A DNA stretch of 39,650 nt. It comes from a virus. Position 1 is the first letter of the stretch. Every line of letters starts with the position of its first letter. Location of the stretch: the IMG/VR virus record IMGVR_UViG_3300027734_000143, positions 1 through 39,650 of that record; one strand, given 5' to 3'. The notes beneath the pieces were generated by a model. It saw only the letters and a list, made by a program, of their open reading frames with translations. It made no database searches and was not told the origin of the DNA. Positions 9,147-39,650 of this stretch are shown here, one piece after another. The position numbers and the translations under genes were made by a program.

Positions 9147-9406
9147 TGTACGCATTCAGAGAAGAGGCTAACTGTGCAGATACTGACCCAGATGCTTTCT
9201 TTGCAACAGAAGGAACAAGTGCTTACCCTAGTTTAAAATTAATACAAAGAATATGTAGTGGTTGTACCGTAGCAGACCAGTGCTTGGACTATGCCCTCAA
9301 ACATGAGGTACTAGGATATTGGGGTAATACCACGGAGTTCCAACGCAGAGTATTACGCAAAAAACTTAATATAATTCCACGCCAGTTATACTTAGACTAT
9401 AATTAA
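9146..9406 (+). CDS. whiB: WhiB-family iron-sulphur transcription factor
   Basis: The 86-aa protein has the four WhiB cysteines (Cys10, Cys37, Cys40, Cys46: C...CxxCxxxxxC) that hold a [4Fe-4S] cluster, the GYWGNTT turn (57-63) and a basic tail (RRVLRKKL). WhiB proteins are found only in Actinobacteria and their phages, and act with the main sigma factor at the polymerase. A phage copy may reprogramme host transcription or block superinfection, as in mycobacteriophage WhiB cases. It is the last gene of the right-going arm and is followed by a bidirectional terminator. Confidence 0.93.
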   Translation: MYAFREEANCADTDPDAFFATEGTSAYPSLKLIQRICSGCTVADQCLDYALKHEVLGYWGNTTEFQRRVLRKKLNIIPRQLYLDYN

Positions 9407-9455
9407 AACAAAAAAAGACCCCCGCCAGGTAGGTTAATGTACCTGAGCGGGGGCT
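9404..9455. terminator. Bidirectional terminator between the convergent arms
   Basis: CCCCCGC-CAGGTA (9419-9431) pairs with TACCTG-A-GCGGGGG (9440-9453) around an 8-base loop. On the minus strand it is followed by a strong T-run (plus-strand A-rich 9404-9416), and on the plus strand by CTTCTTGTCT. It sits after WhiB and after the last left-going gene, so it insulates both arms. Confidence 0.9.
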
Positions 9456-9467
9456 TCTTGTCTCTAC

Positions 9468-9492
9468 GGGGCTGGTAAGCCCCTTAAAAGGG
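9468..9492 (-). terminator. Second hairpin(s) after the left arm
   Basis: GGGGCT (9468-9473) pairs with AGCCCC (9478-9483), and CCCTT/AAGGG overlaps it at 9481-9492. These two are competing small hairpins directly behind the stop of the holin-like gene, upstream of the main terminator in the leftward direction. Confidence 0.5.
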
Positions 9493-9494
9493 TA

Positions 9495-9686
9495 TTACTT
9501 CTTAACTACACCAAATTCTTTTGCTGATGGGTCAAGGGCTTTAAGCGCTGGACCAACTAATCCTGCAACAAAGGCTGATGCCAGTGTCTTAGGGTCATGT
9601 ACGCCAGTCATGTACAAACCTGCTGCTACTGCTGCTGCAGAACGTAGGTAAGTTAAAGCAATCTGCTTAATCTTTTCTTTATTCAT
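9495..9686 (-). CDS. Holin-like small membrane protein (63 aa)
   Basis: The protein has a charged N-terminus (MNKEKIKQ), a hydrophobic helix YLRSAAAVAAGLYMTG, a short turn (VHDPK) and a second hydrophobic stretch LASAFVAGLVGPALKAL, then DPSAKEFG and a basic end. Size, two-helix layout and position directly after the endolysin fit the r1t-type or similar actinophage holins, which make the membrane hole for endolysin release. It is the last gene of the left arm. Family membership cannot be proven from sequence alone. Confidence 0.7.
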   Translation of the reverse strand: MNKEKIKQIALTYLRSAAAVAAGLYMTGVHDPKTLASAFVAGLVGPALKALDPSAKEFGVVKK

Positions 9687-33921: not shown

Positions 33922-35826
33922 TTATCCGTATAGGTCTTGCCATTGCTCGGCGAACATCTCATCGAGATTTACTGCGCCTCTGCGTTCCATCTGAGCACGA
34001 GTTGCCCAGCGGTTGTTTGCGTACATAGATGTTCGGCTAGCAGATTGCATTAGTTCGCGGATGCGAATGACGGCAAACCACAGAGCCATGACGGTATCTG
34101 TTTTTCCTTTAGTCTCTGGCTTCCACGTAAGTAGTTGCTGAGTCAAGGCTTTGATACCTTCAGAACCTTCAGATGAAGGTAATTCTAATATGTTGTTCTT
34201 TTGGAATTTTTCTTCGCGGACTGTGCCAAAGAGGTTAGACATTGATGCAACGCCAAACGAAGTGTCCCATTTGTTTTTGCCTGTGAAGTGAGCATCAAGG
34301 CGTACGCCGTATGCAGCGAGCCAGTTGCGTAAGTCCTCGTCAAGTGAGTAGGCTTTTTGGTGCGCGTTAATTTCAACTCTAAACTCTTGTGGCTTGTACC
34401 TGATAACAAGTTCTTCAATTGTCGCCCGAATCTTTTGTGGTGTTGGTTCTTCCATGTTAATGCAATCAAGAACATAGATACGTCCATCTGCTCTGTTGTA
34501 AGTACATGCAACAAATGCAGCGTTACCTGCCATAGCAGGGTCAAACCCAATTACAGTATGACCTTCTACCTGTGGTGGATGTCCAGCAGCACCAGCCTTT
34601 AACGGTCCGCGCTTGCGCATCCCATTGGTCGCTCCCTGCACGAGTACTGGCGGGAATATGGAGTCTTCCATAATGTCTTCTTGTTGATAGACAAGTGCCC
34701 ATGTTGAGGGCGTAACTTCACTTCTGCGTTTAAAGAGTGCTTGCCCGTCCCATTTAGGATAGCGACCATTTGCTTTCGGAGTATCCGAATCACCATCCCA
34801 CGGAATATCCGACTCATGCCATAAGGTTTTCCAGTCTTCGGGTTTCTCAGCATAGTCAAGAACCGCAGGCATACCCATATAAGTAAACGGTGTCTTGCCG
34901 CCAGACCAGTGCTTAGGATTACGAAGTTCTTTGTAAAGGTCATTTGCCGCAATTCGTGTCCCTACTACTAGAAGTTTACCGTTCTTACCCAAACGAGTAA
35001 TAACTTCCTTCTGTAGCCAATCCATCTGCTTGTCCCACTCATGGGCATTGGCAGTAGTAATACAGTCGTCAAGAATAATCAGGTCAGCACGGGCGCCGTA
35101 AATCTGACCACCCATACCCAGTGCCTGAAGCGTTGGGTCTTTTTCTGAAGAGTTACGCGCATCGCCGCCAAGATAGACAGTATCGGTACGCCAAGTATCT
35201 GCGTCTTCTTTCCAACCGCCCTCAGGACCATATGCGGTCTGTAACTTGAGCCAGCGTGGATGAGACAATCGTTGCTTGATAGCGTATACGAACTCGCGTG
35301 CCTTATTCAATGTCTTTGATACCACGATGATGCGGATGTTAGGATTGAGGGCGATGCGGTAAGTCGGATAGTTCACGGTCACAACCGTGGATTTAGCGTG
35401 CTCAGGAGGCACGTTGATGAGCAGGCGGTTCCCCTCGCCTGGCTCGTAAATCATAGAAGGGTGGAGCCATGAAGGTTCCCTACCCTCCAGTAGGTCTACC
35501 CAGTCCTGATGATGTGGGAAGACCGTCTGGTCAAAAAACATTTTAGAGAAGTCCGCAAATGGAATAGATTCCTTCTCAACGCCCATGGCGGTAAAGGATT
35601 GCTTGCTTCCCTCTTCCTTGGCTTCTTCCAAGTTACGGGCAAACTCAGGGTCACGGTTCATCCATTGACGTACCGTATCTGGTTTCTTACCCGCCGCAAC
35701 CATAGCGGCTTGGACGCTTACACCTTCTTTAACTCTAGCAATTACATCTGCCTTAGCCTGGGCGACCCCTTTGGCGAGGTGGTGCTCGTCACCCTTTTTG
35801 AATCCCTTGTGCGCTGGTGTAGCCAC
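33922..35826 (-). CDS. terL: Large terminase subunit with fused N-terminal HTH (634 aa)
   Basis: A GTG at 35826, 6 bases after AAGGAG, is the best start; ATGs at 35883 and 35868 lack ribosome sites and 35832 is too near. Residues about 26-72 are a small-terminase-type HTH (VIARVKEGVSVQAAMVAAGK, DTVRQWMNRDPEF). The ATPase has Walker A PPEHAKST (140-147) and Walker B LIILDD (249-254), with a VVGTR coupling motif near 290. The RNase H-like nuclease has Asp429 (GFDPAM), Glu485 (VEINAH) and Asp577 (KTDTVMALW). It cuts and packages DNA. No separate small subunit is seen, so the HTH may do its work. Confidence 0.9.
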   Translation of the reverse strand: MATPAHKGFKKGDEHHLAKGVAQAKADVIARVKEGVSVQAAMVAAGKKPDTVRQWMNRDPEFARNLEEAKEEGSKQSFTAMGVEKESIPFADFSKMFFDQTVFPHHQDWVDLLEGREPSWLHPSMIYEPGEGNRLLINVPPEHAKSTVVTVNYPTYRIALNPNIRIIVVSKTLNKAREFVYAIKQRLSHPRWLKLQTAYGPEGGWKEDADTWRTDTVYLGGDARNSSEKDPTLQALGMGGQIYGARADLIILDDCITTANAHEWDKQMDWLQKEVITRLGKNGKLLVVGTRIAANDLYKELRNPKHWSGGKTPFTYMGMPAVLDYAEKPEDWKTLWHESDIPWDGDSDTPKANGRYPKWDGQALFKRRSEVTPSTWALVYQQEDIMEDSIFPPVLVQGATNGMRKRGPLKAGAAGHPPQVEGHTVIGFDPAMAGNAAFVACTYNRADGRIYVLDCINMEEPTPQKIRATIEELVIRYKPQEFRVEINAHQKAYSLDEDLRNWLAAYGVRLDAHFTGKNKWDTSFGVASMSNLFGTVREEKFQKNNILELPSSEGSEGIKALTQQLLTWKPETKGKTDTVMALWFAVIRIRELMQSASRTSMYANNRWATRAQMERRGAVNLDEMFAEQWQDLYG

Positions 35827-35899
35827 GTTCATCTCCTTTGTGGCAGAGTCCCCCCGCCCTACAGACATATGTTTGTACAGCATACTGTAACAGAGTGAG

Positions 35900-35919
35900 G
35901 AACTCTAATAAAAGAGTTC
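35900..35919. repeat. 7-bp hairpin GAACTCT / AGAGTTC
   Basis: The arms 35900-35906 and 35913-35919 are perfect around a 6-base AATAAA spacer. A GAACTATTT direct repeat follows at 35921 and again at 35970. It lies in the leader of the leftward terminase transcript and may be an operator or mRNA hairpin. Confidence 0.5.
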
Positions 35920-35939
35920 TGAACTATTTTACTCTCTAT

Positions 35940-35967
35940 ATAGTATTAACCTGTTCAAATAGGTCAA
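35940..35967 (-). promoter_or_regulatory. Leftward promoter candidate TTGACC - 16 - TACTAT
   Basis: On the minus strand TTGACC (35967-35962) is followed after 16 bases by TACTAT (35945-35940), with TATATA overlapping. It would drive the terminase and structural arm. The hexamers are close to the sigma-70/SigA consensus but not proven. Confidence 0.4.
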
Positions 35968-36020
35968 ACGAACTATTTATATGAAAGTATTTTTTATAGA
36001 TACTAAAAGTGCAGGTCAGA

Positions 36021-36050
36021 CTGTATATAGCCCCCTGTAACTATATACAG
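36021..36050. repeat. 10-bp-arm palindrome CTGTATATAG / CTATATACAG
   Basis: Perfect arms 36021-36030 and 36041-36050 enclose a 10-base spacer. The CTGTATA core also appears in the inverted repeat at 1800-1830. A plus-strand TATAAT (36077-36082) follows 27 bases later, so it may be an operator for a rightward promoter. Confidence 0.6.
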
Positions 36051-36076
36051 AAATATTTGTAGGTAGAGATACAATA

Positions 36077-36082
36077 TATAAT
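36077..36082 (+). promoter_or_regulatory. Rightward -10 candidate TATAAT
   Basis: A perfect TATAAT is present, but the -35 region (TATTTG at 17 bases spacing) is weak, so activation or an alternative sigma factor would be needed. The palindrome at 36021-36050 lies just upstream. Transcripts from here would cover the structured region. Confidence 0.35.
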
Positions 36083-36120
36083 ACTGACACAGATTAACAT
36101 ATAGGGGGTCAAAGACTAGA

Positions 36121-36138
36121 ACAGAACTGTAGTTCTGT
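36121..36138. repeat. Near-palindrome ACAGAACT-GT-AGTTCTGT
   Basis: Eight-base perfect arms (36121-36128 and 36131-36138) with a 2-base centre make a compact operator-like site. It is followed immediately by the CAGACAGAC units. The tight spacing suits a dimeric DNA-binding protein rather than an RNA hairpin. Confidence 0.55.
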
Positions 36139-36249
36139 ACAGACAGACTACATACTGCGGGTTGTCTGTCGGTAGTCTATCTGCCTGCCTACCTAGGGGG
36201 GTAGATATATACAGACAGTACAATTAAATGAGAATACTCGGACTGTCCG

Positions 36250-36279
36250 TCTATAAACTATTGCCTTGGCAATTGTCAA
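36250..36279 (-). promoter_or_regulatory. Leftward promoter TTGACA/TATAGA with palindromic operator in the spacer
   Basis: On the minus strand a perfect -35 TTGACA (36279-36274) is followed after 18 bases by TATAGA (36255-36250). The spacer is filled by ATTGCC-AA-GGCAAT (36273-36260), a perfect 6-bp-arm palindrome. This is a classic place for a repressor, or for a MerR-like activator that acts on long spacers. The transcript would run left toward the terminase. Confidence 0.6.
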
Positions 36280-36326
36280 CCCCTCAGACCTGACTATCGC
36301 AGATGCATGGTCGTAATCTGTCCTAT

Positions 36327-36378
36327 GATTTAGAGACAAAGACAACGCGCCTGCGTTGTTGCCTTTGTCTGTTAAATC
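36327..36378 (+). other. Long interrupted hairpin (21 bp)
   Basis: GATTTA (36327-36332), AGACAAAG (36334-36341) and ACAACGC (36342-36348) pair with GCGTTGT (36353-36359), CTTTGTCT (36363-36370) and TAAATC (36373-36378) around a GCCT loop. The breaks are small and one-sided or 1-2 bases. Such an extended stem is more than expected in a plain promoter region and suits a structured RNA, an origin or a protein-binding cruciform. Confidence 0.65.
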
Positions 36379-36393
36379 AAAGGCAGACCAGAC

Positions 36394-36432
36394 GGCGATA
36401 CAATTCCTTAGAATTGATATCACCGCCTTTTA
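36394..36432 (+). terminator. Terminator-like hairpin with T-run (plus strand)
   Basis: GGCG-ATA-CAATTC (36394-36406) pairs with GAATTG-AT...CGCC (36411-36427), loop CTTA, and is followed by TTTT. The perfect CAATTC/GAATTG core and the GC clamp beside the T-run resemble an intrinsic terminator for rightward transcription. No gene precedes it on that strand, so it would end a non-coding transcript. Confidence 0.55.
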
Positions 36433-36465
36433 CTTATCATTCCTTTGAGTTTATCTCCATCAGCA

Positions 36466-36548
36466 AAATAGCAAGCGTACTTAACCATGATTCCCGTCAC
36501 GCCCTTCTGGCATGACAGTAATCACAGTTAAGTCTGTGCTTGCTATTT
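36466..36548. other. 83-base symmetric long hairpin (26 bp in four blocks)
   Basis: AAATAGCAAGC (36466-36476) pairs with GCTTGCTATTT (36538-36548), CTTAAC (36480-36485) with GTTAAG (36527-36532), TGATT (36488-36492) with AATCA (36520-36524), and GTCA (36496-36499) with TGAC (36513-36516). The internal loops are nearly symmetric (3x5, 2x2, 3x3). This is the most striking structure in the window. It may be an RNA element, origin or packaging site. Confidence 0.7.
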
Positions 36549-36599
36549 GAGTCACGGTGTTCTACGTCTGCCTGGCTGGGGTGCTGATGACGGCTCTCG

Positions 36600-36653
36600 A
36601 TTTTGAGCATCAGAGTCTTGTCAAGCCAAGCCTCCGATAAGCACGCTCAAAAT
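36600..36653. repeat. 9-bp inverted repeat ATTTTGAGC / GCTCAAAAT
   Basis: Arms 36600-36608 and 36645-36653 are perfect around a 36-base spacer that contains CTTG-T-CAAG. It lies between the 83-base hairpin and the next hairpin, forming a chain of stems up to the first early gene. Confidence 0.5.
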
Positions 36654-36654
36654 A

Positions 36655-36681
36655 GGCTGGCAGGCTAAAGCCTGCGTAGCC
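36655..36681. repeat. Hairpin CAGGCT-AA-AGCCTG with outer GGCT/AGCC
   Basis: CAGGCT (36661-36666) pairs with AGCCTG (36669-36674) across a 2-base centre; GGCT (36655-36658) pairs with AGCC (36678-36681) outside. It is a compact palindrome in the leader of the right arm. Confidence 0.5.
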
Positions 36682-36703
36682 ATTGCTCTAGCCTGAGATA
36701 TTT

Positions 36704-36728
36704 GGGCATTGCCCTTAAAATTTAAGGG
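36704..36728 (+). promoter_or_regulatory. Two mutually exclusive hairpins before the first early gene
   Basis: GGGC-ATT-GCCC (36704-36714) and CCCTTAAA-A-TTTAAGGG (36712-36728) share the CCC at 36712-36714, so only one can form. The second ends about 12 bases before AAGGAG (36740-36745). This could be a simple switch, or the 17-base palindrome could be an operator. Confidence 0.5.
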
Positions 36729-36750
36729 TGGTTGATACAAGGAGATAGAA

Positions 36751-37146
36751 ATGACAAAATACACAAACCAAGGCATCAGCGTCACCACACAATGCTACGA
36801 CTGCATGATGCTTGACTACGTATGCAATAACTGCGAGGAAACGAAAGAAGCGCGTGACAGTGCAGTTGCCCATCAACTCGTTGATGAGGGCAACATGCAG
36901 TACAAGCGTCAGTGGCTACGACCAGTCGAGGACATAAGCGGACATGACTGGACTGACCGTGAAGGCGAGTACAAACTACCAATCGTCATGCTTCAAGACG
37001 GTGGAGTTTATGAGGAACTATGGGAGTTAGAAGATGAGCGTCAGCGTGCACGTGAGGTTGAGTGCCAATGGTGTCACATCCTGACTCCCAAGATATTCAA
37101 CCAGTGCCAAGACTGTGACGGTATCTTAGAACATAACGTAAGATAA
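36751..37146 (+). CDS. First early gene: Cys-rich zinc protein (131 aa)
   Basis: Two pairs of CxxC knuckles are at each end: Cys15/Cys18 and Cys25/Cys28 (QCYDCMM ... VCNNCEE), and Cys105/Cys108 and Cys119/Cys122 (ECQWCHI ... QCQDCDG). The middle is charged with EYKLPIVMLQDGG. It probably binds two zinc ions and may be a regulator or a takeover protein, as first gene of the right arm. A good AAGGAG leader is present. A strong hairpin follows the stop. I do not recognise the family. Confidence 0.72.
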   Translation: MTKYTNQGISVTTQCYDCMMLDYVCNNCEETKEARDSAVAHQLVDEGNMQYKRQWLRPVEDISGHDWTDREGEYKLPIVMLQDGGVYEELWELEDERQRAREVECQWCHILTPKIFNQCQDCDGILEHNVR

Positions 37147-37157
37147 ACTAAGTTACA

Positions 37158-37187
37158 GGTAGCCCTGTTGCCTACGGCAGGGCTACC
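37158..37187 (+). terminator. 10-bp hairpin after the first early gene
   Basis: GGTAGCCCTG (37158-37167) pairs with CAGGGCTACC (37178-37187), loop of 10 bases, followed by TTCC only. The short T-run makes it a weak terminator or an attenuator, letting part of the transcript run into the next gene. Confidence 0.6.
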
Positions 37188-39448: not shown

Positions 39449-39650
39449 AACCATAATCAAAGAAAGAATAAAGCAAATTGAAAAACTGTCTAGTCAAGAT
39501 AAGCATGGACAGTTTGAGATTGGTACACCTGAACAACAAAGTGCTGCTAGATTAGTAGAAGATTTCTATACTAACTTTGACTTGAGTAAAGAAACAAGTG
39601 AAGATGAACTATCTATCACAACAGCCGCTGTTATACTAGCACTCAAAGAT
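39441..39650 (+). CDS. DUF4192-like protein, N-terminal part (runs across the joint)
   Basis: A GTG with GGGAG 7 bases upstream opens MNKTIIKERIKQIEKLSSQD, and the frame continues to the window end (70 codons). The frame at the end (AAVILALKD) continues into base 39 of the window, giving a 176-aa protein. The N-terminal part is charged and helical, and the C-terminal part matches DUF4192. The full gene should be annotated as one CDS on the circular map. Confidence 0.75.
   Translation, partial: MNKTIIKERIKQIEKLSSQDKHGQFEIGTPEQQSAARLVEDFYTNFDLSKETSEDELSITTAAVILALKD
39613..39650. repeat. Terminal direct repeat marking circular closure (copy 2)
   Basis: Identical to bases 1-38. The reading frame across it is open, as expected for a circular molecule or circularly permuted phage genome assembled with overlap. 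Confidence 0.95.

Follow-up and report, generated by a model that had tools for sequence, protein, structure and literature searches.

What does a long, symmetric hairpin do in the gap between the two divergently transcribed arms of a phage genome? The hairpin occupies positions 36466-36548 of the IMG/VR virus record IMGVR_UViG_3300027734_000143, which was analysed over all of its 39,650 bases (the window, to which all coordinates refer). An initial annotation proposed a noncoding RNA, a cruciform replication origin or a terminase recognition site, and knew of no named element of such form. The analysis described here strongly supports the first proposal by covariation and strand-asymmetric G·U pairing: instead of standing alone, the hairpin belongs as an arm to a structured noncoding RNA of far greater size.

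The genome and its divergent region

The features that frame the hairpin are:

1-38 and 39613-39650: exact 38-bp terminal repeat
33922-35883, minus strand: terminase large subunit (TerL; phrog_38, E 1e-69)
36751-37146, plus strand: early gene, 131 aa, four CxxC-like pairs seen by eye

The window probably amounts to a whole genome of about 39.6 kb, circularly assembled though classed as linear, since its ends share the terminal repeat and are adjacent in relatives. The leftward structural arm encodes TerL, portal, capsid and tail fibre, and the rightward early/replication arm encodes helicase, primase, exonuclease, a sigma-like factor and a glycosyltransferase; the hairpin lies between the first genes of these arms, as initially described. 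TerL is 63% identical to that of the isolated Planktophila phages LanE43-AprE7 and F5 (PMC10202952) and 42% identical to that of Streptomyces phages, hence the host is likely a freshwater actinobacterium. Residues of about 43-95 of TerL are similar to small-terminase/Sf6 DNA-binding domains, which suggests a fused small-subunit-like domain. The 131-aa early protein is a possible zinc ribbon, as judged by eye from its CxxC-like pairs, and a search for a family match returned none. No integrase was found among the proteins tested (a subset of the ORFs), and ARAGORN found no tRNA genes in the 39.65-kb genome.

That the hairpin region holds no gene was borne out, as the sole ORF of at least 60 aa across it (36303-36515, plus strand, 70 aa) is disrupted by 1-nt indels in relatives, and a coding role was rejected on this ground.

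The hairpin folds far beyond chance

36466-36548, minus strand: 83-nt hairpin (P3 below), -48.7 kcal/mol and z -10.6; relatives show compensatory changes

Read on the plus strand, the inverted repeat consists of blocks of 11 (AAATAGCAAGC/GCTTGCTATTT), 7, 5 and 4 bp, so that three of the four block lengths given earlier are correct and the second is 7 rather than 6 bp. The plus strand folds with a minimum free energy of -35.4 kcal/mol (z -8.7). The minus strand forms 34 pairs, with G·U pairs closing most of the apparent 'internal loops'. None of 200 dinucleotide shuffles was as stable as the hairpin on either strand, and when every 100-nt window of each strand was scanned, a single stretch (from 16301, plus strand, antisense to the tail-fibre gene) folded more stably. 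This part of the genome, 16131-16470 on the plus strand, opposite the tail-fibre gene, has the most stable predicted folds of all, which may reflect only GC-rich repetitive coding sequence.

Two small readings of the hairpin were rejected. An intrinsic terminator does not fit, as no U-run follows the outer arms, after which come TGCTGATGG (minus strand) and GAGTCACGG (plus strand); a terminator site predicted on the plus strand at 36523-36538 is an inner sub-stem of the hairpin. A boxB-like loop (GCC-UGAAG-GGC) was likewise dismissed, as the apical loop varies freely in relatives (GAA, GCA, AAA, AGC).

Architecture and covariation of an RNA of about 400 nt

A 24-sequence alignment and its consensus fold, drawn from the window and its relatives, retained the hairpin structure and showed its original limits to be too narrow, as conserved pairing extends over about 36699-36302:

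36302-36699, minus strand: type A, a structured noncoding RNA that 29 other contigs also carry (approximate limits of the conserved pairing, not mapped ends)
36453-36699, minus strand: Domain I, multibranch; contains a subdomain of two hairpins at the 5' side as well as the three-way junction
36699-36695/36457-36453, minus strand: closing helix of Domain I, compensatory U-A to G-C in 7 sequences
36458-36589, minus strand: three-way junction of P1, P2 and P3
36589-36582/36465-36458, minus strand: P1, with U-A/C-G and A-U/G-C exchanges
about 36567-36552, minus strand: P2, short hairpin
36390-36428, minus strand: P4, hairpin of 17 bp, sequence strongly conserved
36315-36389, minus strand: P5, long hairpin with compensatory change in 7 pairs

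In this consensus fold of 24 sequences the 83-nt hairpin, P3, makes up the long arm of the junction, and the 3' side of P5 contains the near-invariant block AGGACNGATTACGACCAT. Standard pairs fill 98.0% of the 3113 pair cells. The initial annotation had named compensatory changes in relatives and conservation near the terminase gene as its test, and both are seen: the RNA lies upstream of TerL, and double-sided compensatory change affects 27 of 130 pairs (104 cells) spread over 10 of 14 helices. Change of this kind across many helices is the general mark of a large structured noncoding RNA. Shuffled alignments gave means of 12.1 double-sided pairs and 28.7 cells, with 0 of 500 as high as the real alignment, a control that related sequences alone can outscore; sliding the structure along the alignment gave 2-8 double-change pairs and 34-43% of cells paired, a comparison biased in favour of the consensus fold, which was derived from the alignment tested. 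For both reasons, the individual exchanges are the strongest single facts, namely UA to GC in 7 sequences (columns 54/301), CG to GC in 5 (columns 397/416) and AU to GC in 11 (columns 393/419). In the window, the fold of the whole slot that holds the RNA has a z of about -7.6, compared with -0.8 to -2.9 for coding controls.

The RNA is most likely read from the minus strand

Several G·U pairs are invariant in 24 of 24 sequences and would be invariant A·C mismatches on the opposite strand, and it is this pairing that argues for an RNA rather than a DNA element. The fit to the minus strand contains 350 G·U against 11 A·C, and among the 97 pairs common to the fits of both strands the bias is moderate (26 G·U against 7 A·C). 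The consensus energy is -140.5 kcal/mol for the minus strand and -104.8 kcal/mol for the plus strand. From these sequence comparisons, the functional molecule is most likely an RNA that runs in the terminase direction.

The opposite reading, a plus-strand RNA serving as the 5' leader of the early operon, is very unlikely. It could appeal to the reverse complement, which also folds well (z -7.9 in the window), and to the early gene, whose start is about 50 nt from the structured region, yet the minus strand is the more stable in 12 of the 12 sequences compared as well as in the consensus, and the early promoter-like site comes after the structured region:

36693-36721, plus strand: early promoter-like site at the edge of the structured region (such sites are no commoner here than in shuffles)

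Type A RNA occupies a variable slot between conserved flanks

Carriers of type A were gathered by pattern scans for the hairpin apex and the 3' conserved block, followed by profile confirmation, which gave 29 other phage contigs, or 30 counting the window. In every contig that extends far enough, the RNA is flanked by the early gene and, at its opposite end, by TerL, and in related phages the RNA is found only at this locus upstream of TerL, on one strand and in the terminase direction. Searches with two covariance models, one of the three-way junction and one of the 3' domain, gave no type A match in 67 other sources or in 9 of 14 records searched whole, and none in phages with other slots. 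Eight pattern-scan matches in bacterial genome contigs were obtained, none of which was backed by the profile.

Comparison of the region upstream of TerL across relatives shows conserved flanks and a variable middle, in which the slot is bounded by the conserved early-gene start and a conserved late leader:

36290-36739: variable slot; similarity to relatives with other slot RNAs breaks at about 36739, the ribosome-binding site of the early gene, and at about 36273-36301
35884-36290, minus strand: conserved late leader upstream of TerL, common to phages of all slot types

When the intergenic cassettes were clustered, they fell into type A, type B (30 members), type C (20 members) and small groups, and the slots of most relatives fold better than shuffles, with coding controls doing so only slightly. 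Type B (L005, L007, L013, L015, L052, L082 and others) is a branched RNA framed by GTCACTC...TTTGAC, with an CTGCTGAATAGGCAG arm and exchangeable side arms, and looks like a second RNA class built as a mosaic of modules. Double changes were counted in 10 of 32 pairs of its module M1 and in 14 of 28 pairs of module M2 (21 G·U against 4 A·C in M2); covariation and G·U excess in the two modules point to the same strand as in type A, in alignments that are small and partly gapped and give weaker support than for type A. Most type C slots measure 1.0-1.8 kb, and small ORFs occur on their early strand; the longer ones (L026, L027, L031, L032, L039, L042, L060) have strong nested hairpins with recurring GGTTCTG...CAGGTTC ends, which adjoin these ORFs.

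Slot content does not follow the replication and packaging proteins. Four phages (L005, L007, L009, L018) have helicases 98%, primases 95-96% and TerL 92-94% identical to those of the window and an unrelated slot sequence, whereas four others (L092, L151, L159, L164) carry type A with helicases only 72-84% identical. At the nucleotide level, L007 shares 90% of TerL and 88% of the early gene with the window and has an unrelated slot, whereas L129 shares 69% of TerL but 85.5% of the RNA, and in distant carriers generally the identity of the RNA to the window (80-86%) exceeds that of TerL (68-74%). The L005 contig (79,356 bases) has two helicase genes (98% and 56% identical to the window's) and two primase genes (96% and 48%), and may join two related phages.

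The same comparisons bear on the two DNA elements suggested at the outset, a cruciform replication origin and a terminase recognition (cos/pac) site, which we consider most improbable. The divergent position adjoining TerL and the strong inverted repeats on both strands would suit either. The origin is disfavoured by the phages with near-identical helicase and primase and an unrelated slot, the recognition site by those with 92-94% identical TerL and an unrelated slot, and both by the sharing of type A among phages with 72-84% identical helicases. Moreover, G·U pairs invariant on one strand and compensatory changes over about 400 nt fit an RNA, and contigs run through the slot, the window closing elsewhere via its terminal repeat.

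Spread of type A by horizontal transfer was considered and set aside, since the tree of TerL and that of the RNA have the same main split (the window, L025, L145 and L092 together). Long vertical inheritance with replacement in close relatives is as likely as horizontal transfer, and only local conflicts between the trees (e.g., L159) suggest transfer. As the trees share their main split, type A is old, and its patchy occurrence is best explained by replacement in close relatives.

Putative transcription signals and a possible cis-acting role

Between the slot and TerL, the late leader contains a promoter-like sequence that includes an inverted repeat; it lies some 60-90 nt ahead of TerL and, in each of the slot types compared, on the downstream side of the RNA:

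35930-35995, just before TerL: GTTCGTTT...GAACGGATTAA, an inverted repeat with TACTAT/TATATAG that is conserved whichever of the compared slot types is present
about 35975-35940, minus strand: candidate late promoter GTTCGTTT...GAACAGGTTAATACTAT

The inverted repeat is a candidate late promoter/operator. Late transcription from such an element would begin beyond the RNA, which therefore need not belong to the late mRNA.

The main rival to a trans-acting RNA is a cis-acting leader, in which the RNA would form the 5' part of a long leftward transcript into the terminase operon and act on that operon, for instance through antitermination of the put type, stabilisation or control of translation. 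The two classes of slot RNA that were examined share their position and their strand, in the terminase direction; the conserved late leader sits between the RNA and TerL, and no obvious terminator directly follows the RNA. As no convincing minus-strand promoter for the RNA was found in the slot region, nor a clear terminator, this reading stays alive. It is nevertheless rather unlikely, as the candidate late promoter is downstream of the RNA, the end of the RNA is more than 400 nt ahead of TerL, a multi-domain RNA of about 400 nt is large for a put-type element, and unrelated RNAs substitute for each other while the leader stays constant.

Possible function in trans

We give about an even chance to a trans-acting role, in which the folded RNA of about 400 nt would itself be the product. 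The RNA would be transcribed separately from the minus strand, toward the terminase, and in infected cells would bind a protein of the host (or phage), the ribosome or RNA polymerase and so act in trans, probably in host takeover or counter-defence. One point against trans action is that all copies lie at one position and on one strand, which a trans-acting RNA would not need. Antisense action against the phage's own mRNAs was rejected, as pairing amounts to three 13-mers only, two of them overlapping, which were taken as chance.

Replacement of the unit beside unchanged flanking genes suggests selection for alternative targets. Quite unlikely, in comparison with host targets, is a defence- or exclusion-type RNA partnered with a neighbouring phage protein such as the 131-aa early protein. 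Such a partnership would account for the fixed position beside the early gene, and the early protein is itself variable among carriers (30-70% identity to that of the window), but L007 has a 90% identical early protein with a different slot RNA and 30-40% identical ones occur with type A, hence the RNA and the early protein do not vary together.

For the trans-acting RNA, a broader and more tentative proposal, which we hold at less than even confidence, is that a widespread group of freshwater actinobacterial phages has a dedicated RNA slot for interchangeable, unrelated large RNAs (at least types A and B, the latter a mosaic of arms), whose cassettes would be exchanged like immunity or anti-defence genes, making the slot an RNA-only arms-race locus. 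If the cassettes track host range or defence, the RNA itself would be a tool of counter-defence or takeover that phages can exchange. A natural experiment is provided by close relatives whose core proteins are near-identical and whose slots hold different RNAs, so that the function of the RNA is testable by swapping or deleting the slot.

Relation to known phage RNAs

The statement that no named element has this form holds against Rfam, GOLLD and ROOL included. With Rfam 15 at the gathering score (cmscan), neither the window nor 12 relatives gave a match, and a permissive search of the slot gave only sub-threshold chance matches, mostly to eukaryotic miRNA-type hairpins. The GOLLD model (RF02032) had no match at E<=10 in the window and none over the cut-off in 9 relatives; the ROOL model (RF03087), run without a positive control, had no match either, and cmscan at gathering was also negative for it. 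Two further phage RNAs invite comparison. The prohead RNA (pRNA) of phi29 is a phage RNA with a three-way junction, as is type A, which also adjoins a packaging gene; type A differs in having no Rfam match at gathering and in an RNA type that does not follow the TerL type. The put RNA of HK022 is a structured, cis-acting phage leader of about 65 nt with two stem-loops, in contrast to the multi-domain type A of about 400 nt.

GOLLD is a large, elaborately structured phage noncoding RNA first seen in lake and Lactobacillales DNA, with one universally conserved and one less conserved region, and ROOL is a large ornate phage/prophage RNA without a known protein partner; neither has a known function (PMC12286853). 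Type A resembles both as a large ornate phage RNA; however, its sequence and fold differ from those of GOLLD, which is usually near tRNA genes, and no tRNAs or tRNA island accompany type A. Among the results listed by searches of the open-access literature, no paper dealt with RNAs of this sort from freshwater phages or from positions near a phage terminase gene. Type A is apparently an undescribed class of a known kind, the large ornate phage RNA, with the interchangeable slot as its unusual part, and it adds an RNA class in relatives of the isolated Planktophila phages E7 and F5 (TerL 63% identical; PMC10202952). These two isolates have a slot unlike that of the window.

Other hairpins in the genome

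A hairpin at 37158-37187, GGTAGCCCTG-TTGCCTACGG-CAGGGCTACC, lies between the first two early genes with no U-run after it. Many relatives with an early protein only about 50% identical keep this hairpin at 100% identity. At 9391-9510, close to where the convergent arms end, both strands form a strong hairpin, probably a bidirectional terminator.
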